NCBI GenBank assembly: GCA_946699065.1
Contig: CAMPDV010000006.1
Location: 1 to 64,000 of the forward strand
From: Loxodes magnus
Lineage: Eukaryota; Ciliophora; Karyorelictea; Loxodida; Loxodidae
Direction: 5' to 3'
DNA: 64,000 bases
The first letter of the stretch is position 1, and every line of letters begins with the position of its first letter. Made by a program: the position numbers and the translations under genes. This document shows, in pieces, positions 24,106 through 37,190 of this stretch. The notes beneath the pieces were generated by a model that saw nothing but the letters and a program-made list of their open reading frames with translations, ran no database searches and was not told the DNA's origin.

Positions 24106-26695
24106 TCACTTGATATATCTCTATTTGTCCTCCACACTCATTGTAGTATTAGCCATTACGCAATTGTTAAATCTTAAACCGTAGTCTGCATATACTTTAT
24201 TTCAGTCAGTCTAAATAAATAATAGTTGTTAGAATTGAACTTACCTACTATTAGTTGATAGTATCTACTCCGTTCAATATCCTTCCTAAGTTCCATCTTC
24301 GAATGACGTAATCACTTGATTAGGCTGAACAGAATGCACTTTAGTTACTTGATACCAACCATTGATTGTCCCTTGATAATGATAAACTACCCACTGGGTC
24401 CGTATGACCCATAAGTACACAGATACACTATCCATTATTGATATTTCATATTCTTATACTCTTGTCATAAGATCCTGATAAGATATACTTGTTGTTACTT
24501 GAGAATATTACCGATAAGACATAAGAGGTGTGTCCCGAAAAGACCTTTATACATTATTATGTCTTAGAGTTCCATAGTCTCACCGTCTAATCTACACTTC
24601 CCGATGCAATGAACTCTGAATCACTGGATATAGCCACAGATCATACATAACTAGTGTGACCACTCATGGTCTTACAGGTACCTGTCTTGACGTCCCATAG
24701 TCTCACCGTCTCATCATAACTTCCCGATACGATGAACTCTGAATCACTGGATATAGCCACAGCATATACATAATCTGTGTGACCACTCATGGTCTTACAG
24801 GTACCTGTCTTGACGTCCCATAGTCTCACCGTATTATCTCTACTTCCCGATACGATGAACTCTGAATTACTGGATATAGCCACAGATCATACATAATTAG
24901 TGTGACCACTCATGGTCTTACAGGTACCTGTCTTGACGTCCCATAGTCTCACCGTCTAATCATAACTTCCCGATACGATGAACTCTGAATTACTGGATAT
25001 AGCCACAGCACATACCTAATTAGTGTGACCACTCATGGTCTTACAGGTACCTGTCTTGACGTCCCATAGTCTCACCGTCTAATCATAACTTCCCGATACG
25101 ATGAACTCATTGTTTGGTGAGATGGCAACTGAAGTGACACGATTAGAGTGTCCACTGTAAATGTGAGGATGTTCCGTGATGATGGATGATAAGTTAGAGT
25201 TAGAGAGGTCACAATTAATAAATTTAGTGTTACGGAGGTTGGATTATGTTAAGTTGGAGTTAGAGAAATTACAATTTGTGAAAGAGGTGTCCGAGAGATC
25301 AACTTTGGAGAGGTCGATGTTTTGGAAGTTTTAATTGGTGAACGCGAAGTTCAAGTAGTTTAACATTGTTAGCGAGTTTGATGTTAATTAAGATAATCCA
25401 TGTTGAGATTTACAAAGTTGTATAATCTAAATTAACTTGTTTGGAATTTTTTAGTCAGTTATTTATGGTAACTTTAACAAGATTTGACCTTAATTGATTA
25501 ATCCTGATTTGTTTAACGGATTGTATTTCAAGTTTTATATATTGAAATTCTCATCTTTTATCTGGTTTAAGAACTTATTTAAATTGTCGAAAGTTAGATT
25601 TGAGAAATCAGATATTACATACTTGAGTAAGTTTTATTGTTCATTACATACTTAAATTACTTGACTTTCATTCTTAAACTCATTTTTAAGATTCACTACT
25701 CTTTACTCTATTACTTAGACTAACTCTCTTGCTTCGACTATTTATTTTTCCTTCTATGATAGGTCTAATTTTACTTAAGAATCTTTAACTTGAATTTATT
25801 CTTATTGTTATTATTAATCTAGTTCTTGATCTTAATTTTATTACTGAATATTTTAAGATTCTTTATTGACTTTTTGTTCCTTGATTTAAACATTTGCCTA
25901 ACCTCTTTAGTTATTTACATGCTTTGCTACTTGACTAAGACCCCTTACTACTTTGAATTGCTTGAAAAACTTTTCTATTAACTCCTCTGTCTTCTTGAAA
26001 GTTAAGTATTTTCCGTTAGCATTCTCTTTTAAATAGCTGAAGAGATTGAATTGACATGTTTAGATATTATTTCTTAAAGTTTAAATGTCCATTGGCTGTC
26101 TCTAATCTCTCTTAAAATTTTCTATCTCTCGCAATATTTACTTGAATTATTCTTGAGCTTGATCATTTTACCTTTATTATTATTACTATTCCATTCTTTA
26201 AGCTTAAAATTATTAAACATTATTCGCATCTTTAAGCTAAGATAAACGCTATAATAGATTTTTGATTTTACTATTACTAAGAGAAAACGAGTCTATTCAA
26301 GATTTAAATATTTCCTGAACTGATAACGACTGGATATACTTCATGAACTATGAACTTTCCGAAATAACTTCTCTCATCATAAGTTAGTAATTCTATTTCT
26401 AAGAGTATTAATCCTGTAACCATTTGAACTACTCATTGATTTTCACTTAATCAATTAATTCATTTTACTGAATTGGTATGTCTTATTAATCAGGCTCTTA
26501 AACTACATGTCCTTATAACTATTCAGGGTTTAAGTTAAAGACTTAGTTGTGTTATGCACATTCTAATTTTTTAGTAAGTCGAAACACTGTCTTAAAACAC
26601 TTTAAACATGAGCTACATCCACATGGTAATACTTTATATACTCGCTTGTCTTAATCAAATTACTCTTCACAGTTTGGACATTGATTGCTATCCAT
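24106..26695 (-). CDS. RING finger - coiled coil - pentapeptide repeat - WD40 protein
   Basis: Read with TAR=Gln and TGA=Trp this is one intact gene: exon 1 at 26,695-24,245 (817 codons), a 34-nt intron, and exon 2 at 24,210-24,106 (34 codons plus TGA). The ATG at 26,695 directly precedes the first zinc ligands. Residues C6, C9, C25, C27, C30, C33, C46 and H49 have exact RING spacing (CX2C-X15-CXC-X2-C-X2-C-X12-CX2H). A Gln-rich coiled coil follows (about 150-360), then pentapeptide-like repeats with Leu/Phe every five residues (about 453-508). Seven WD40 blades span about 515-815, enough for one closed propeller. Blades 2-5 are nearly identical; blades 6 and 7 are diverged. By family knowledge, RING plus coiled coil plus propeller suggests an E3 ubiquitin ligase with WD40 substrate recognition; this is inferred. 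If the TGA at 24,204-24,202 were the stop, the protein would end 32 residues earlier. Confidence 0.88.
24211..24244 (-). other. 34-nt spliceosomal intron in the WD40 gene
   Basis: Minus strand: GTAAGTTC at the 5' end, a TTCTAAC branch-like sequence, and TTATTTAG at the 3' end. It falls between codons. Without splicing, the frame after the seventh blade becomes an unconvincing string; with splicing it continues as a normal hydrophilic tail containing YGLRFNNC and ends at TGA. The 34-nt length differs from the 15-16-nt introns known for heterotrich ciliates. Confidence 0.72.
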
Positions 26696-28277: not shown

Positions 28278-28292
28278 ATAAAATAAAATCGA
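28278..28292. repeat. Left target-site duplication of retroposon A (15 bp)
   Basis: The 15-bp ataaaataaaatcga recurs exactly at 29,125-29,139 and the match stops on both sides. It lies 8 bp before the ORF1 start codon. The AT-rich part could match by chance, but the tcga end and its position next to the coding unit argue for a true duplication. Confidence 0.75.
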
Positions 28293-29124
28293 ATAAAAAA
28301 ATGGCAGAAGGTCTCAAGAAGGGTTTTTTGTAGGCTTCATAGATAAAGGAGCAAAAACCAGAGACTTCTAATTCTTCATCCATCACGTCCTCTTTAATAA
28401 AATAATAATCTTCTTAAACTTAATAACCTCTAATAGTTGAAAATTAAAGACAATCTTAAATAAAATAAGAACTTAAATAAGCATAAACAGAATAAAAATA
28501 ATAATAAAATTTTGACTTTCTTCCTAAACTGAGACCAAGTAACTATAGGAAATAAGAGAATCCAAAAACGATGCAAAAACAGGCAAATGAAGAATAATTA
28601 TTAATTGAAAGTCTTTTGAAATCTGTGCGTATTCTGTAAGAAGAAGTAAAAATATTAAGATAAGAAAACAAAAAATTATTAGAAAAAAGTTAAAATACTG
28701 AAGAAAGATTAGTCAAATAAGAATTCGAAGTATAGCAACTTGGACAAAAAAGAATAGAGCCTCTAATCTAAGAAATAAAAATGGAAGTAGAAGACGATAA
28801 GTAAAAAGAACCAACCAATATTAGAAGGATTCTCAAGAGATGTTACCTGTGCTAATCAAGATTCCATAGATTCAAGAGTTGCAAGATATACAAGGAAAAG
28901 ATGAAGAGAAACAGCGAAGAAATCTGAAGAGAATTAACAAGAATTTACGTGACGATAGAAGGAAGAATTTACAGAAGAAGAATTTTCCATTCGAGTTCCA
29001 GAACTCCGAAAAAACTGGATGACCCGAACTTTTATTTTAAGCATACAGGAGCGATCACTGGATGTCAGTGGAAATTAGGTTGAAATACCTCAAAACCACA
29101 AACACTTTAATTAAGTATATTATT
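28293..29124 (+). mobile_element. ORF1-only non-LTR retroposon A (832 bp)
   Basis: A compact unit bounded by 15-bp direct repeats. It has an 8-bp leader, one complete ORF1-type gene, 41 bp of 3' sequence after the TGA and an end in tatattatt. There is no endonuclease or reverse transcriptase, so it would depend on enzymes supplied in trans by a LINE. Retroposon B (31,188-32,036) has the same plan, almost the same length, a TTA-rich 3' end and a 17-bp duplication. The surrounding DNA is AT-rich spacer. Confidence 0.72.
28301..29083 (+). CDS. LINE ORF1-like protein with coiled coil and CCHC zinc knuckle
   Basis: 260 codons ending in TGA, open only when TAR is Gln and TGA is Trp. It begins MAEGLKKGFL. 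An N-terminal Gln/Ser-rich region (about 12-75) is followed by a Leu/Glu/Lys-rich coiled coil (about 91-150), then a CCHC knuckle C181-X2-C184-X4-H189-X4-C194, then a basic C-terminal domain with RIYVTIEGRIYRRRIF. ORF1 proteins of this layout bind element RNA and package it for retrotransposition (family knowledge). An internal ATG at 28,571 is a possible alternative start, but the upstream 90 codons read well and begin just inside the element edge. The TGA is supported by retroposon B, whose frame also ends in Gly-TGA. The gene looks intact. Confidence 0.8.
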
Positions 29125-29139
29125 ATAAAATAAAATCGA
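29125..29139. repeat. Right target-site duplication of retroposon A (15 bp)
   Basis: Exact copy of 28,278-28,292, directly after the 3' end of retroposon A. Confidence 0.75.
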
Positions 29140-29159
29140 GATATTAACTATTAAAATTT

Positions 29160-29535
29160 AAATAGGGTGGAAAGCCCTTTCCTTCGGATGTTGCTTGGAG
29201 GTCCAGCAAGGCAAATAAAAAATAAGCGCAGATGGAGGATAAATCGGAGAAAGAGAAATCAATGACAAGAGAAAGACGATGTAACAAGCTGAAGAACTCT
29301 GAATGCCAGGAGGAAACTTTCTTCATTATAGGTCGGGGAAGTGTACCCGTAATTGAATATTGCGTCCTATGCTTTGGAAGGAAAAATTACAGGGATGTAC
29401 TGCAGGAAGAGAAAACAAGGATAGAGAGACATAAAAAAAATTTTTGACATTAAATAAAATTAATTTAAAGAGCTGCGCACCAACGAGAGTGCTACGCTCT
29501 CAATAATCTAATTTATTTATTTAACTAAAAAAAAT
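29160..29535 (+). repeat. GC-richer element ending in the conserved hairpin tail; short unknown ORF
   Basis: Starts near gggtggaaagccctttcc and ends with a hairpin (29,469-29,500) and a tttatttattta stretch, the same tail as at 35,569 and, in weaker form, at 27,118-27,075. The interior is not visibly homologous to those copies. A plus-strand frame at 29,232-29,447 (71 codons, start MEDKSEKEK, TGA stop) continues open upstream to about 29,166 when TAA/TAG are sense. It carries four cysteines, including a CVLC pair, and a Lys/Glu-rich end. It may be a LINE-derived fragment or a short hypothetical gene; I do not recognise it. Confidence 0.5.
29469..29500 (+). other. Conserved 3'-tail hairpin, copy A
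   Basis: agagc pairs with gctct (29,496-29,500), an internal loop tgc/tac follows, then gcac pairs with gtgc, closing an 8-nt loop. The copy at 35,569-35,601 keeps the outer stem and has different bases in the inner stem that still pair mostly. Such 3' hairpins are often recognised by LINE reverse transcriptases (general knowledge). Confidence 0.65.
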
Positions 29536-29986
29536 AACAATAAAACTTTACTCCCCTTAAAAAAAATTAAATGTTTTTTGAAGCACTTCATAAAATCAAA
29601 CCAACAACACTTAAAGCATGTAAACAAATCAGATAGAAATTAATATAAGACCACAAAAAAAATAGAAAATAAGCAAAAATTATAAACTCAAATGGCTATA
29701 ATAGAGAAAAAACAGAAAAAATGATGATTGAAAAAGGAAATTATCAGAAATTTTAAAAGAAAAAGAAATAAACAATAAAAAATTAAATTTGTTTTAGATG
29801 ATAAAAGGTATATAAATCGACAACATAAGAAAGTTATAAATGAAACGAAAAAAAAATCGAAGTTTAAAAGTAATTAAAAAAAAAAGTGTAAAAATGAACA
29901 ATCGATTAAGATCTAAAAAATAAAAAAAATAAAAAAAAAAACTATAAATGCTGAAGAAAGAGTTTATGAATGAATTAATTAACCAA
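29536..29986. other. A-rich spacer after LINE remnant 3
   Basis: A-rich on the plus strand with long A and T runs around 29,850-29,940. Frames are open on both strands because no codon is an absolute stop in this code. I see no domain or motif. Confidence 0.45.
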
Positions 29987-31170
29987 TCAATTAATTTACG
30001 TGGTTTCACCATTGATAGTTGAACCATAAATTAAGAGAAAATCAAAAGTAAGAGTATTCTTGGAAATTATCTTATCAAGCCAGAATCTTCTAAATTTTCT
30101 TTTATTTGTTCTAAATTTTTCTTCCAATAGATTCATTATACCCTAATCTGAATAATTAGATTCAATCTCCATCATTAGGTCTTTTTAAAACAGTAGAATT
30201 CTATTTCTATCTATTACTTTTCCAACTCTTTCATTTGTCTTTAGATAGTTAAGCTATCTGTTAGTCTTTTCTGAGGGCATCGCAAGTTCCTTTCTACATT
30301 TTCTTAGAATTGTTATAAAGTTGCTAAATCATATTTTCATTTTTGTCCTCTTGATAAATTATTATAAATTTAAATATGCTCGTTGGATCCTGCTCTATAG
30401 TCTTTACCATTTTTTTCTAATAAGTAAGAATTTTTTAAATATAACCCCATTTTCTTTTCTCTTATATATCTTTCAGAAAATTTTTAATGTGATAATCTAT
30501 TTCTTTTTTTTTGATTATTTGTTGAGTTCGTATCAAATTTTCGAATTTGTAATTTCCTCATACTATTTCTTCAAGCCTGAGTTTAAGAAGGCTTATTTTT
30601 ATTAGTCATTACTGATAATTACGTTCTCGAGATTTTCTATTAACTATTCTCTTTCTTCTTTTTATTATCTACAATCTTCTATTATATGGATCTCATCTTC
30701 CTTTCTATAATTGCAGAATTAGCATGCTTCAATCTCTATTAGATTTCTTTCTTTCATTGCTTATGCTGCTCCATTACATTTGGCCCATAGCATAAATAAG
30801 TATCATATTTTCTGTTTTCTGTGTTTGTTGAATCTTGGATAGTTTGGTATTCCTTGTATGAATTGTTCAATTAATTCACTCTAATTTTTTGCAGGTGATC
30901 ATATTCTACATTCTTGTAATGGAATTTACATCATTATGGAACTTTATCGCTTTTTATTATTAATTTTTCATCTATTCCTTTTCATTTTTCTTATATTATT
31001 ATTTCGTCATTGAGCTGTAGTGCCTCCATTACCTTCCTTGAGTTATGTTTCAAATATATAGTTATTCCTCTTTGCTAATTGACATATTCATCCATCCAAT
31101 GTTGATTCTTAGCTTAGGAGCAATTTTCTTCTGAACATTATCATACGTTATCACATGTAATTTTGTAGTT

Positions 31171-31187
31171 TAAGGAAAATCAGTTCA
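31171..31187. repeat. Left target-site duplication of retroposon B (17 bp)
   Basis: taaggaaaatcagttca, repeated exactly at 32,037-32,053; flanking bases differ on both sides. Confidence 0.9.
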
Positions 31188-32036
31188 AAAGACTTAAAGT
31201 TGAAAAAAAAAATGGAATAATCTATTCGCCTTTCCAAAAACCAAATTAAGAACGCAAAAAGGAAAGTTGCGAAACAAATGCAGAGACAACAACAAGAAGA
31301 AGATAAATCAAGTTCCTCCTCTGAAGGAAAAATCATAATCGGAACAATAGAATCGAATCCAGTAAAGGTATAAAAATAATCCGAATATAAATATAGCTTG
31401 ACCAAATGAAAACAATAATACAAAATTATTAGGAAACAATTTACAACCAAGGGGAAAAAATAAGAGAACTAATGAATACTATCGAAGATTAAAATAACGA
31501 GCTTCTAATAATTAGACGATAATTGATTTAAAATAATCTAGTCACGGAATAGTAACTATATGAATAATCTCAATCGAATTTTAAGCAAGAACAAAATATG
31601 ATTATCGAAAATGTTTCTACATAAGCAAACGTTTAAGAAAAATAGAATGACTAAAAGATTAATATAGATTTAATCAAAAGAATCGATTAACTTGAAAAAA
31701 AAAGTATTTCTGAAGAGATTCAAGAAAAAACAAGGCAAACAATGCTATTATTGCAAATCAAAGTGACACTTATTACAAAATTGCGATTAGTGAAGATAAA
31801 TTTAGATAAAAGAACAATAAAGAAAGTTAAGCATACTCAGCAGACTCTGAATAACCTAAACAGGGATTTACAAGAGAAAACTATTCACATAAAAGACAGA
31901 AGATCCTCTGTGGTTCCATCCACATAAAAAAATGGCGTGGTATCCATCCGCGCTAAAAAAATGGTAGCAAAAACCTGGTTGAAAATCCAGGGAATGCTAA
32001 ACTTTAATTACTTTTAATTTACTATTATTATTATTA
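31188..32036 (+). mobile_element. ORF1-only non-LTR retroposon B (849 bp)
   Basis: Insert flanked by a perfect 17-bp duplication, with a 24-bp leader, one ORF1-type gene, 54 bp after the TGA and a tactattattattatta 3' end. It lies antisense inside LINE remnant 3, whose coding frame is continuous when the insert plus one duplication copy is removed. That shows a true insertion and fixes both ends. The duplication is intact, so the insertion is probably younger than the decay of the host LINE. No enzyme domain is encoded. Confidence 0.85.
31212..31982 (+). pseudogene. ORF1-like protein (coiled coil + CCHC knuckle) with two compensating frameshifts
   Basis: Starts MEQSIRLSKNQ, ends Gly-TGA at 31,980-31,982; 256 codons overall, close to the 260 of retroposon A. 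The CCHC knuckle is C178-X2-C181-X4-H186-X4-C191, with TGA (31,764-31,766) read as Trp inside it. The C-terminal part (RLWITQTGIYKRKLF) matches the RIYVTIEGRIYRRRIF block of copy A. Between about 31,395 and 31,705 the convincing Leu/Glu/Gln-rich coiled coil lies in another frame (GEKIRELMNTIEDQ). Two small indels, one in the A-run near 31,700, therefore seem to have moved the frame out and back. The original frame is also free of conventional problems there, because no codon is an obligatory stop, so a divergent but intact gene cannot be excluded. Confidence 0.68.
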
Positions 32037-32053
32037 TAAGGAAAATCAGTTCA
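32037..32053. repeat. Right target-site duplication of retroposon B (17 bp)
   Basis: Exact copy of 31,171-31,187, immediately after the TTA-rich end of retroposon B. Confidence 0.9.
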
Positions 32054-32258
32054 TTCTCTAGGATTTCGTTTTATGCTCAAAAAGGTCCATCTACTACAGC
32101 TCTTAATGATCTAATCTGCATGATTTCCAATTTATTAATTAATTAATTGAAATATAATATCTTCAATATTTAAGAACAGTGAGATATAGTTGCAATAGAT
32201 ATAGTTTAGACTATAAATATTACAAATATGTTGAAAGATAAAAGTTTATAAATTTAAA

Positions 32259-35203
32259 TCAAGTTTTTTCTTGTTCTTTCTCTATCATATATTTTTATTT
32301 ATTTTCTTGATTTAATTTTTCTTTTTTTCCTTCTAGAAACTCTTCTAACAACTCATTTTGTAGTTTAAACATTTCAAGACGCTTTTTTAGTAATTTGGAA
32401 TTAAAATTTTTGATTAATTTGTCTATTTTAGGAATTTGGTTTTTTGAAAAATGTTTGTTTATATAGTTTTAGTCATAAAGAATTAATTTCTTTTTGTCTT
32501 TTTCTTTAAGAGCTTTATGAATTTCGAATTCCTCAATAATATCTGCATTTTATTAGCAATAAAAAATAAGATCAGTTTCATCAAAATCTTAGCCACATAA
32601 GCAAATAATACTATATCTAACGTTAATGTAACGATTACTGAGTTCTTATTGAAAATTATAAGAAAAATTTCTTAGTTTATAGATGAAAATAGTCTCTCTA
32701 ATATAGTGTTTATTAGGAAATACACTTAAATTATTTTCTATTTAGTCTATAATTCTTTTTGCTGTTGGCATAAGTGTATTTATAGAGAGACATTCCATTA
32801 AGAATTTATGTTTTATTTTTTATTCCGTGAGTTTATAAAAATCCATATTATTCTAAACATGTGACATATCAAAATTATACAAATTGATACATTTCTTTAT
32901 ATGTTTCTAGTATGGTAAATTAAATTTAGTGTCTTTTTCTAATAAAAAGCTGTGTCCTAGTTAGGATTTTCTTTTCTGTATTATATTACTTTTTAATAAA
33001 AGCGCATTAACTTTTGGGTTACCTTATGTGTAAAAGGAAGCCAGTTTAAGTCAATAAAGCATGAATCATTGAATGTGAATTCTTAAGATCTAAACGCCTA
33101 TCTTGAAATAAACCTTTACGATTTTGCTATCTTGCTTTTTATTCCTCTAATTCCAGAAATAGTAGCTCACGGAGTAATATCACTTCCATATTAAACTTTA
33201 GGCAAAATAAAAGTTCTATAAAGAATTTTGAAGCTGAGAGGGGATACTAAAATATATTTAGAAAGTATTACAGTAGCTTTTTAAATTGCTACCCTATGTT
33301 TGGTAGCTACTGCTGTACAATGTAATTTGTAATTTTATTTTATTCCTAACTAATATCCTAAATAGTTAACTTCATCTTTTTAAGCAATTTAAATTCCATT
33401 GAACTTTAGAGTAATAGAAGGTTAGCTTTCTTTTCATTTATTTTTTTTCCAGAATTCTATTACTTCACATTTATCTACATTAATTGTAAGTTTTATTAAA
33501 TCAAAAACTGTAGATGTAGCTTGTAATAATTTTTAGCCGTTTTTCTAGGAAGAGGACAATTAGATTAAGTCGTCAGCAAAGGCTCGTACTACGAAAGTTT
33601 TAGATAAGATTTGAAATCCTAATTTCTTCTGATTATCTTCTAAATATCTTATAACAATATCATAGTATAAAATTACAAGTACAGATGCTTGGCTACTTCC
33701 TTATAATACTTTATTGTTATATTTTATTGTTCTTGTAAGATATCCATCAATTATAAACTTAGCCTCAACATTATCATAAAAAGATTCTAATGGCAATATT
33801 AGGTCAAAGGTAAATTAAGTCTTCTAAGATGATCAAAAAGTAATTTCCGAGATATGCTATCAAACATTTTTTCTACATCTATTAAAGTAGCAACTAATTA
33901 CTTTTTAAGAGATCATCTACGATGCAAGTTTCTAATTTACTAAATATTTCAAATTTGCTAAGTAGTGGAGTGTTTATGAATAAATCCAAATTAGGCTGGA
34001 TGTAAAATGTTTCGTTCATAAATATAATTTTAAAGTCGTCATGCTAGTGCTTTATCATAAATTTTAAGTAGGCAGTTCAATAAAGCGATAGGTCGTCAAT
34101 TACATCAATTATTTTTGTTTCCCTTTTTGAAAATCGGAAGAATGTTTATTTTTTCATTGCATTAGGTATTTTAAATGTTCTAAGCATGTTATTAATGAAA
34201 CTTGTAATAATTTAATGCAAATCTTAATCTCCATATTTAATAAGCTCAGCTTTAGGCCTCATTACCTGTAGCTTTGTTATTTGGAAGCTAAGATATAATT
34301 TTTTTAATTTCAAATCATGTAAAAAGAGGCATATTTTATAAATGACTTAATTCCTAATTTAAGATAAAAGATTTATTTCTAAATATTCCATCTATTTTTC
34401 TATTTGAGAAATATAAATCTATCTTACTTATTTTCGAATGTTCATCAAAAACGTTGGTTTCTCAATTTTCAATAAATTGCTGTTTTTATTTATAGTTAAA
34501 ATTCATCTAATTAAGAATTTTTGGGTTTATTAGATCCTAAGCTTGTTTAAACATTATTTAAGCATTTTTGTTAAGATCTTTATGTTTTTCATTAGCTTTT
34601 TATTTTTTTCATTTCCAAAATTTGTGAAGATAATGCTTATAAGATGAAATTTTAAGCTAGTAAAGCTTGATAACTTCTTAACTATGCCCTCCATACAAAG
34701 CTAATGCGTTCTAATATGCAATATTATTCTTTTTTACTTTAGCAAATAACATAGTTAAGTAACTTGGCAATTGATGATAGTTTTTTCTTTAATTTTAAGA
34801 TCCAAGCGCAATCTTAGCATCATAGCTAATAAGATCGCAGATGAATTGATACTAATTTTCAACATCTTTTTAATCAAGTTACTAGAATTGATAAATTATC
34901 TCAAAAATAGATTTTAATAATAGTTTCTCGTGTTCAGATCCTATAGTTTTGAAATTTTAAAGAGTAATCGTTATTGTTAATCTTATTCGCTTCTTTTTAA
35001 ATTATAATTAAATGTAATACTTAAAGAAAATTATCAATATACAAACCCGAATCTTGGATAATTTTATAGTCAACGAAATCATCAGAATTTAAATGTTAAG
35101 TTGCCAAGAAGTAGTCATTACAATAGCATTAATTATTTGCTCTATGAATAAATGTATTGGACTCATAATCATTTAAAATTATTAATTGATATTTTATAAA
35201 ATG
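32259..35203 (-). pseudogene. LINE ORF2 remnant 1: endonuclease C-terminus, reverse transcriptase, Cys motif
   Basis: Minus strand, TAR=Gln, TGA=Trp. The 5' end (35,203-35,030) reads as the last part of an APE-type endonuclease (NTFIHRANN, NDYFLATQ). The reverse transcriptase follows in order: PLFTWFEIKKIISQLPNNKA, LPIFKKGN, NWRPIALLN (Trp by TGA at 34,096), QFGFIHKHSTT, motif A with catalytic Asp in LIDVEKMFDSI (33,877), motif B GSSQASVL, and motif C FADDL (33,569-33,580). Thumb and a C-terminal CLCGQDFDETDLIFYC motif follow, then a Lys-rich tail to TGA at 32,261-32,259. Frame breaks near 35,030, 34,246, 34,155, 33,780 and 32,885 make it a pseudogene. It is cut at its 5' end exactly where the hairpin-tailed element begins (35,200). 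Confidence 0.88.
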
Positions 35204-35632
35204 GATGTCGGCCGCGTCAGACAAGATAGTAGGTAATCTGGTTCAGAGTATACTGCATTGCGAGTAATCTTGCACTAGATGCCACCACAGGGAAGGGTGG
35301 ATAAGCTCCGTTGAGGCATACCTAACTTACCCCGAGATTTTTCTCTAGCAGTATGAAAGTTTGACTGACGGGCCTTCTTATTACCGACTTAATAACTTCT
35401 TTTATTTGGACCTTATTAAAGAAGGCTGAAGCATTTGACTCAAGATTTAAGAATAGATTTTAATAAGAAGATTCCCCATTTGGAGAAGCTGACATGACTC
35501 ATCGGACCTCTAGAATTTTAACAAGAAACATGAGAACATTTTTCTTAATATTAAATGTTAATATTGAAAGAGCTGCGCTCCAATGAGGTGCTACGCGCTC
35601 TATAGTCATTTTATTTATTTATCTGTTAATTT
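35200..35632 (+). repeat. Hairpin-tailed repeat element, copy 2
   Basis: Plus-strand homologue of 27,470-27,075: it begins TGGATGTCGGC, shares GTATACT.CAT, GCCACCACA, TTATTTGGACC, TAATAAGAAGATT and TTTTTCTTAATATTAA, and ends with the hairpin and tttatttattta tail. It is GC-richer than copy 1 in its first half. Pieces of the copy-1 reading frame appear here in different frames, so any coding function is lost. It abuts LINE remnant 1 on the left and meets LINE remnant 2 on the right, suggesting insertion at a junction of older elements or truncation by them. Confidence 0.65.
35569..35601 (+). other. Conserved 3'-tail hairpin, copy B
   Basis: agagc (35,569-35,573) pairs with gctct (35,597-35,601), and the inner gctcc/ggtgc pairs with one mismatch. 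The base changes relative to 29,469-29,500 keep most pairs, which supports a selected RNA structure rather than chance. Confidence 0.65.
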
Positions 35633-37190
35633 TTATATTTTAATCTTTAGTTCTTTTACTTCATTTAGAAGTATTTCATTTTATTTTTCAACTTAAAGAG
35701 TATCTTAAATATTCATAATATTATTTACTGCTTTTAACTGGTTAGAGAATGAATTATCAAAAGTATCTTACTATGTAGAGGATATTTTTGATACGAATGT
35801 TGAGACTGAGGTATCAATCTAGTTTTTTTTATCTATAAATATATTTTTGAATCTTTAGAATTCTTGTTAGTTAATTTCCAGTTCTTAAGGAATTTCGAAG
35901 TAATTTTAACGGAATTCGAAGGATCTTGTTAACTGGAGATTAACTACAACTAATTAGTAAAGCTCTTAACAAGTTTATAATATGCACTACGGATTTGAGT
36001 TGAAATGAATCAGGATAAATTTTTAGAAAGTAGTCGAGAATCTGCTTATGCTCATTTAATTAGATGGCAGCTTCTTTATTTTTAGGTAAAGAAGAGTCGT
36101 CAAGATTTTACTCCCGCGATATTTAGAAATCATTAATTTTTTTACATTTCCAATTTATTGAAAGAATTATTTCCTATAGCTTCCTCTATGAATGGAATAC
36201 ACTCGCTTCCATAACCAAATATTTGATTTATAAAGAATTTTATTATTATAGATGCATTATATAGAGGGATTCTTTTATAAATTGTTATTTTGCTTAAAAT
36301 TCATGCTTGGGTTTACTGGCATTCTTAGATTCTTGACTCCAGATGTTTTTAATATGAAATATTTTCTAATATCCAAAGACCTAAATACTTAAATTCCTTC
36401 ACTTTCTCTATTACTATACCTCTTATTGTGATTATCTCTTAATTTTGTCATGCATTACAATTTCATACCATTCATTTTGTTTTGTCCGCAATTTATAAAT
36501 TATAGAGTTATGATCATTATTATAGTATATCAGTCATATCTTCTAGTTAATCTGGATGCACAAATGGTACAATATCATCAGCATATGCTAGGGCGCCTAC
36601 ATATCTTACTTCTGTTCCCTATTCAGTTTCAGTCTGTGTTGTAATACCAACTTCTTTTTCTATAGTTCATTCAATAACTAATTTAATATTATATTGAATA
36701 ATCTTGGGGGAGCAGACACATCCTTATTTTACTCCGTTTATAGTTTCAAATTCTTCAGAGATAAGATCTCTTATTCTTTATTATATTCTCTCCTATTTAT
36801 ATATGTCTGCTAGGAACTTATTTCTTCTTGCGTTACTTCGATCTTATTCAGTATTTTTCATAAATCTGATCTAATTACTGAATCAAATGACTTTTAATTC
36901 AAATAAATAGACGATAGTCTCTTGAAGTTATAAAATAGACATTCAAGTAATGTTCTTTAATTGAATATTTGATAAGAGTATGATTTACATGATTAAAATC
37001 CGTAATGAAATTCATCATCACATCTTAACAAGTAAAGATTGAATTATTTGAATAGTATGAGATCAATGATTTTAAAAAGATGAATCATAAGCGATATAAA
37101 AGATATTTACAGGATCATATGTGTTTACTAATTTGCATAGCAATATAAAGTAGGATTATGATTTACTTTGTATTTTCCGCTATTGAATTT
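35606..37190 (-). pseudogene. LINE ORF2 remnant 2: reverse transcriptase and C-terminus, second family
   Basis: Minus strand, TAR=Gln, TGA=Trp. From about 37,190 it reads MIHLFKIIDLILFK, EFHYGF (motif 2a), IYLNQKSFDSV (motif A), NGVKQGCVCSPKI (motif B), LAYADDIVPF (motif C, 36,574-36,585), LQIADKTK and EFKYLGLWI (motif D region), then YGSE and a long basic/coiled C-terminal part to a possible TGA at 35,608-35,606. In motif A the catalytic Asp position is Asn (codon at 36,899-36,897), so this copy is probably inactive. Frame breaks occur near 36,785 and 35,758. The motifs differ enough from remnant 1 to place it in another LINE family. The last codons overlap the tail of the hairpin element, so its true end may be nearer 35,635. 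Confidence 0.85.

Follow-up and report, generated by a model that had tools for sequence, protein, structure and literature searches.

We analysed the 64-kb window that opens contig 6 in an assembly of the ciliate Loxodes magnus (705.7 Mb, 7843 contigs), the assembly used for the genome searches. In this window a short retroposon carrying an ORF1-type gene interrupts a long interspersed nuclear element (LINE) on the opposite strand (Table 1). Long open reading frames (ORFs) appear in the window when TAA and TAG are read as glutamine, table 11 giving hardly any, and L. magnus is described as using code 27, with UGA as tryptophan or stop (PMC11441545).

Table 1. Features at and near the insertion, in window coordinates (TSD, target-site duplication).
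Feature	Position	Strand	Basis and remarks
Left TSD, TAAGGAAAATCAGTTCA	31171..31187	.	Sequence; also the TSD of sibling copies L009 and L011
Extra 15 nt between TSD and A-run	31188..31202	+	In copies inserted elsewhere, 0-9 nt
ORF1-only retroposon unit: A-run, ORF, 3' stem-loops, ATT tail	31203..32036	+	Limits common to 39 copies
ORF1-type frame	31212..31982	+	ATG at 31212, last TGA at 31980-31982; ~310 nt out of frame in the window copy
CCHC zinc knuckle, CYYCKSKWHLLQNC	31743..31784	+	CX2CX4HX4C, one TGA read as W; translation
3' hairpin, CGTGG..CCGCG in the window copy	31936..31952	+	Fold; pair changes seen among 6 members
Terminal two-part stem-loop, TAGCA[CCTGG..CCAGG]TGCTA, containing the last TGA	31965..31999	+	Fold, pair changes
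(ATT)n tail	32020..32036	+	Sequence; copies have a similar tail
Right TSD	32037..32053	.	Sequence
Host LINE, C-terminal part of ORF2 and 3' region beyond the insert	29531..31170	-	92% identity to L035, translation; start approximate
Part of the host LINE that precedes the insert; old, with frameshifts	32054..34504	-	RVT_1 within 33434-34504; contiguous in L035 up to 33380
Second ORF1-only insertion, MAEGL type, knuckle CYLCQSRFHRFKSC	28293..29125	+	Family limits from relative L028
TSD of the MAEGL-type insertion, TAAAATAAAATCGA, 14 bp	28279-28292 and 29126-29139	.	Sequence

The original prediction of an insertion with a 17-bp TSD inside a LINE ORF2 was borne out: the two TSD copies match exactly and enclose 849 bp, made up of the 15 extra nt and the unit proper, and locus L035 holds a 92%-identical copy of the LINE that is uninterrupted at the insertion point, where the two stretches of it that align to the window share 16 bp (the all-against-all comparison of loci was permissive, and its high-identity rows alone were used). 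L035 is a paralogous empty site for the window insertion. Removal of the insert and one TSD rejoins a minus-strand frame reading ...EILENELIFLKLQNYM..., also as predicted, but that frame requires TAA and TAG to be read as Q and TGA as W. The host is a decayed minus-strand LINE with the insert sitting in the C-terminal region of its ORF2; its RVT_1 match in a Pfam scan (E 6.3e-7, 29.7 bits) lies barely above the cut-off of 29.6. The identical insertion, both TSDs included, is found on three other contigs at 98.5-100% identity, and was therefore either duplicated after inserting or is present as haplotigs.

A family search with the window unit gave 41 matches (best 40 of 2974 candidates scored), and 39 copies besides the one in the window were read with ~3 kb of flank on each. 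As these are the best-scoring copies, a second look was taken through exact k-mers from the two ends, independent of similarity rank. The copies are near-identical, with a minority state present in at least two copies at 34 of 858 columns, 25 of them in the leader or tail. They share the start (A)nATGGAATAATC, altered within the exact motif in L010, and the end TTTACTAT(TAT)n. All 38 copies tested, at 34 distinct sites, have an exact TSD of 11-19 bp (mean 14.8; L010, without the exact 5' motif, was omitted), whereas mismatched flank pairs give a mean of 7.4 and reach at least 10 in 19% of cases. Genome-wide, the 5' 24-mer of the family occurs 576 times and the 3' 26-mer 454 times, with no occurrence of either reversed control. 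The first 100 places of each were taken, and pairing was counted on contigs up to C130; a 5' end lies 708-779 bp upstream of 62 of the 72 3' ends listed there, at exactly 779 in 40, so the many ORF1-only copies with the same two ends that the prediction looked for are present at near-fixed length.

Empty sites, likewise proposed as a check, were found within this assembly beyond L035: a joined-flank search with eight further insertions recovered uninterrupted sites for five (L019, L022, L033, L012 and L028) and, among the best 40 of 660 candidates, none for the other three. The matches are mostly at 94-100% identity, with one at 90%, and those at 94% also cover part of the neighbouring joined piece. 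Because the L028 insertion site lies within a high-copy repeat, many of these empty sites are paralogous, not allelic. With its variable-length TSD, its 3' tail and no long terminal repeat (LTR), the unit is a non-LTR retroposon of the kind produced by target-primed reverse transcription.

The consensus ORF of the family starts with an ATG at nt 10, leaving a leader of only ~9 nt, and contains in-frame TGA at codons 185, 194, 213 and 257 together with 24 TAA/TAG codons; the 58 nt downstream of the last TGA are in line with the mean 3' untranslated region of 53 bp given for L. magnus (PMC11441545). The claim that the insert is an ORF1-type gene with a CCHC knuckle holds. By a strict frame test, 35 of 39 copies keep the frame intact (>95% identity to the consensus protein over its 259 codons), a cruder test having given 37 of 39; the window copy itself is not open throughout, because of two single-base indels. 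The four exceptions are L047 and the three siblings of the window copy. Almost any frame stays open under this code, so that an open frame says little and the test has to be conservation. Compared over 259 codons with L048, a full-length ORF1-only copy that represents a subfamily ~92% identical and has its own imperfect TSD, the family differs by 31 synonymous and 29 nonsynonymous changes, a ratio of nonsynonymous to synonymous rates (dN/dS) of 0.21, with 0.53 and 1.24 in the other two frames. Comparisons limited to 84 and 147 codons gave 0.13 and 0.12, respectively, and synonymous sites are saturated against L040 (131 codons; proportions of synonymous and nonsynonymous differences pS 0.77 and pN 0.34). 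These substitution patterns indicate purifying selection at the protein level between subfamilies.

From its arrangement of a long helix followed by a CCHC knuckle, the encoded product is predicted to be an ORF1/Gag-like, LINE-like RNA-binding protein. Apart from a single long helix at residues 50-170, the AlphaFold model shows little structure. Its predicted local distance difference test score (pLDDT) averages 64.6 and is 83-95 at residues 61-130 of the helix, which is probably a coiled coil. A Pfam scan of the ORF1 proteins, with E up to 0.1, returned sub-cut-off matches alone and no L1 ORF1 family.

The 3' end of the unit also appears to be constrained as RNA. In the window copy (31890-32040) it folds at z -3.25, with the last TGA inside the terminal loop. 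For three helices compared across six aligned members of the first kind, 81% of cells are paired, against 18-42% in slid controls, a lenient comparison given that one of these six supplied the structure. Changes on both sides are seen in 5 of 15 pairs, a count that 1 of 500 shuffles reaches and that omits the first small hairpin, which is broken by the alignment; no pair of the innermost helix changes on both sides. Judged from these pair changes, the 3' RNA stem-loops appear to be conserved in the family.

The format is not confined to the window family: three families, the window family, an L040 type and a MAEGL type, are ORF1-only units of ~835 bp. With an L040 query that included 120-165 nt of flank, 39 other places stop at 117-125 and 948-957 (best 40 of 2575, with three short extra matches), and a 1041-nt query from L028, of MAEGL type, is spanned by none of 39 other places (best 40 of 1500 candidates), its matches starting at 42-114 and ending at 943-1007 with 96-100% identity. 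The MAEGL-type 5' 24-mer occurs 252 times and that of the L040 variant 45 times. The MAEGL and window-family proteins align at 55 bits (26% over 216 residues), having in common the knuckle region and the box that follows it, which by eye resembles LSRLYV..GxIYrRxLF; the best score among the 195 of 200 shuffles yielding one was 29.6 bits, and with composition adjustment 41 bits over 70 residues are retained. Relatives at 25-46% protein identity have the 3' format in common.

These observations bear on whether the copies might instead derive from a small number of conserved host genes, domesticated from ORF1, as processed retrocopies that LINEs make but that do not propagate themselves. Near-identical copies with few diagnostic changes would be found in that case too, and a dN/dS below 1 between subfamilies would be equally expected. 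Such an origin nonetheless seems to us improbable, given a tail of (ATT)n and not poly(A), conserved 3' stem-loops, a leader of so few nucleotides, two families with hundreds of 5' ends each, and a 3' format kept across such divergent proteins. A different extension, that the families form an ancient self-standing clade whose protein is not descended from that of any extant LINE ORF1, whose ORF1-only format is older than the split at ~26% identity, and which may lend ORF1 protein to ORF2-only LINEs, is possible although we think it unlikely; if it were true, ORF1 and ORF2 would constitute a two-part mobile system.

Among the other loci read, further CCHC frames with no endonuclease-reverse transcriptase (EN-RT) seen alongside lie in L018 (940-1810), L023 (4900-5760), L036 (4970-5860), L039 (3853-4977) and L045 (1110-2245), those of L018 and L023 with ATT tails. 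On the minus strand of L020 (4500-6500), a MAEGL-type copy is nested within an older copy of the first kind.

The outcome that the prediction had named as fatal to itself, most copies running 3' into an EN-RT ORF2, was looked for and did not appear: no EN-RT continuation is present in any copy read (39 copies and L048), all of which end at a TSD. Neither the window family nor its relatives have within the unit the EN-RT ORF that marks an autonomous LINE. Among the best 150 of 3403 RVT_1 candidates, none of the 25 places on contigs covered by listed 5' ends lies within 8 kb of a family 5' end, and for MAEGL 5' ends the figure is 0 of 62; likewise, none of 99 listed family 5' ends (one listed place was dropped) lies within 8 kb of the scored places of an autonomous LINE found in L030. 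That the copies are simply truncated or internally deleted LINEs, the unit being a fragment of a LINE with ORF1 and ORF2, might be suggested by the abundance of LINEs (the 3403 RVT_1 candidates), by the existence in this genome of a LINE with ORF1 followed by EN-RT, and by old RT pieces flanking six loci (L009-L011, L023, L030 and L046), though outside the TSDs. This explanation was rejected, and we consider it very improbable, because the ends are fixed in the 62 pairs above, the L040 and MAEGL types have the same format with fixed limits, RVT_1 is not near the 5' ends, the frame appears to be under selection, and the protein lacks clear similarity to the ORF1 of the autonomous LINE.

That autonomous LINE, distinct from the window family, has an ORF1 with CCICKLKGHTDQQC followed by EN. 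This EN was recognised by eye, through motifs that include IKIGTANVRG and EDHRPG; with Pfam, three frames of the EN region in L030 gave no match. The EN part lies within 1.6 kb for 36 of 38 L030-type ORF1 places, and the other two places are only apparent exceptions (a single match covers both parts in C954, and the EN part is split in C382), in a search that ranks by a query with both parts and so favours complete LINEs. An RVT_1 place follows L030-type ORF1-EN in C97, C504, C241 and C1869. Neither the MAEGL nor the window-family protein is clearly similar to the ORF1 of this LINE (best E ~0.1), as compared with one possibly frameshifted copy in three frames.

As to the source of RT, the window host LINE was rejected as donor on present evidence, its 3' end being different. 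The terminus of an old LINE in L038, CTTTTAGTTTATTATTATTA, is similar to that of the family, CTTTTAGTTTACTATTATTATT, the two having 11 nt and ATT repeats in common, and 9 of 10 divergent (73-76%) and 4 close places among the best 40 scored stop at this end (query 591-625). Its exact tail 19-mer was not seen by eye within 8 kb of the best 150 RVT_1 places, and the L038 LINE is a weak candidate for partner; the L. magnus LINEs rnd-1_family-27 and -19, described in PMC11441545, are also candidate RT donors. The likeness of the L038 end would suit a family that arose by internal deletion from one extant LINE with the same 5' start and 3' tail, which still moves it, much as HAL1 relates to L1, and so would the N-terminus of the ORF1-only element in L018, which has 17 residues, 12 of them identical, in common with the autonomous LINE ORF1. 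We hold this derivation to be unlikely: no LINE with the family ORF1 was seen among those read, the 3' block in common with the L038 LINE is short, and the autonomous LINE examined, in that single copy, has a different ORF1.

Several other repeats lie in and around the window. A 123-bp tandem repeat on the minus strand occupies 37634-64000 (~215 copies across 26 kb, continuing past the window edge) and 24560-25108; it encodes WD40-like 41-residue repeats (..VSGSYDQTVRLWDVKTGTCKTMSGHTNQVCAVAISSNSEFI..), a frame with a RING-like cysteine pattern lies near the shorter array, and the whole could be a giant WD-repeat gene or a coding satellite. Adjacent satellites at 7-21668 have periods of 107 (92 copies) and 81 (146 copies) and a pyrimidine-rich plus strand. 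A ~385-bp repeat at 29149-29530, also in L017, L031 and L035, has a hairpin-like stretch GAGAGCGTAGCACTCTCGTTGGTGCGCAGCTCTTT and adjoins the 3' side of the host LINE, being possibly a non-autonomous element or a LINE 3' untranslated region, and a more GC-rich repeat of ~440 bp at 35190-35640, also in L032, L040, L028 and L042, has a related hairpin-like stretch. The repeats at 35.2-35.6 kb and 29.15-29.53 kb were considered as parts of the window element and rejected, as they are separate repeats in several loci.

Taken together, we propose, with a probability of about 0.82, that the insert is a frameshifted copy of a young non-autonomous non-LTR family, a ~834-bp unit with its tail that encodes an ORF1/Gag-like protein, that is one of several related ORF1-only families and that is mobilised in trans by LINEs. 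Direct support comes from the fixed ends, the TSDs, the (ATT)n tail, the empty sites, the absence of EN-RT from the units read, coding selection and the 3' stem-loops. The family RNA would be translated, and the ORF1 protein would bind its own RNA with cis preference; the ORF2 protein of a LINE, acting in trans, would recognise the 3' stem-loops and tail and copy the RNA by target-primed reverse transcription. The frame would then be kept because the element needs its own ORF1 protein. A wider ORF1-only set in the genome is likely, and such families may account for part of its unclassified repeats.

Some points count against this proposal. A conserved host source gene could equally explain selection between subfamilies, and the family is known here from genomic sequence alone. 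The 5' 24-mer is absent for 10 of the 72 3' ends listed, and 38 of the 100 5' ends listed have no exact 3' mate; the full-length L010 is one of those 10, and the one mateless copy read, L048, is full-length as well, so that with 62 of 72 paired, gross 5' truncation is uncommon among family 3' ends. The RVT_1 and LINE proximity tests cover best-scoring or listed places. At the 3' end, further pair types are no more numerous than in shuffles (198 of 500 reach the count). Among the LINEs compared (the window host and L038), no RT donor was established: 23 of the 40 scored places, all close, run through the L038 LINE end as part of a larger repeat, and its tail 19-mer has just 28 occurrences (control 1), 13 of them at places already scored.

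The question of why an RNA-binding protein is retained by a parasite without a copying enzyme is relevant to cis preference in LINE retrotransposition. Young families that have no ORF2 but an intact ORF1 provide a natural test, in which the ORF1 protein would have to act on its own RNA and the ORF2 protein could be supplied from elsewhere.

The original prediction called ORF1-only mobilisation unusual; the ORF1-only nature of the family is supported, but precedent was understated, as both HAL1 (PMC5753468) and HeT-A (PMC5537684) are ORF1- or Gag-only. HAL1 (half-L1) of mammals is described as a non-autonomous non-LTR element derived from L1 and encoding only ORF1p (PMC5753468), and the window family also encodes only an ORF1-type protein. 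HAL1 has an ORF1 and 3' end derived from L1, whereas the Pfam scan, with no match above cut-off, the CCHC knuckle and an (ATT)n tail with stem-loops set the window family apart, a distinction drawn from these features and not from an alignment with L1, and in L. magnus several diverged families have a common format. HeT-A of Drosophila, a Gag-bearing non-LTR element without pol that is thought to use the RT of TART or TAHRE (PMC5537684), is likewise Gag-only; it forms head-to-tail arrays at telomeres, whereas the window family is dispersed with TSDs. For the short interspersed nuclear elements (SINEs) that pair with stringent-type LINEs, such as eel UnaL2 with its SINE and zebrafish ZfL2, a 3' stem-loop and tail are described as the likely recognition signal (PMC4176376). 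The window family has a 3' stem-loop and tail too. SINEs are non-coding and pol III-derived, whereas the protein encoded here appears to be under purifying selection, and it is on coding alone that the family falls outside that class; nor is a partner LINE with the same 3' end established for it. In a limited search of open-licence papers, we found no description of ORF1-only elements beyond mammals (HAL1) and flies (HeT-A), and the words "nonautonomous", "SINE" and "ORF1" are absent from the main text of PMC11441545. By analogy, the L. magnus families may work in the manner of HAL1 and HeT-A while fitting neither definition fully, and what is new here is that several diverged, coding, near full-length ORF1-only families coexist in a ciliate with a common 3' format.
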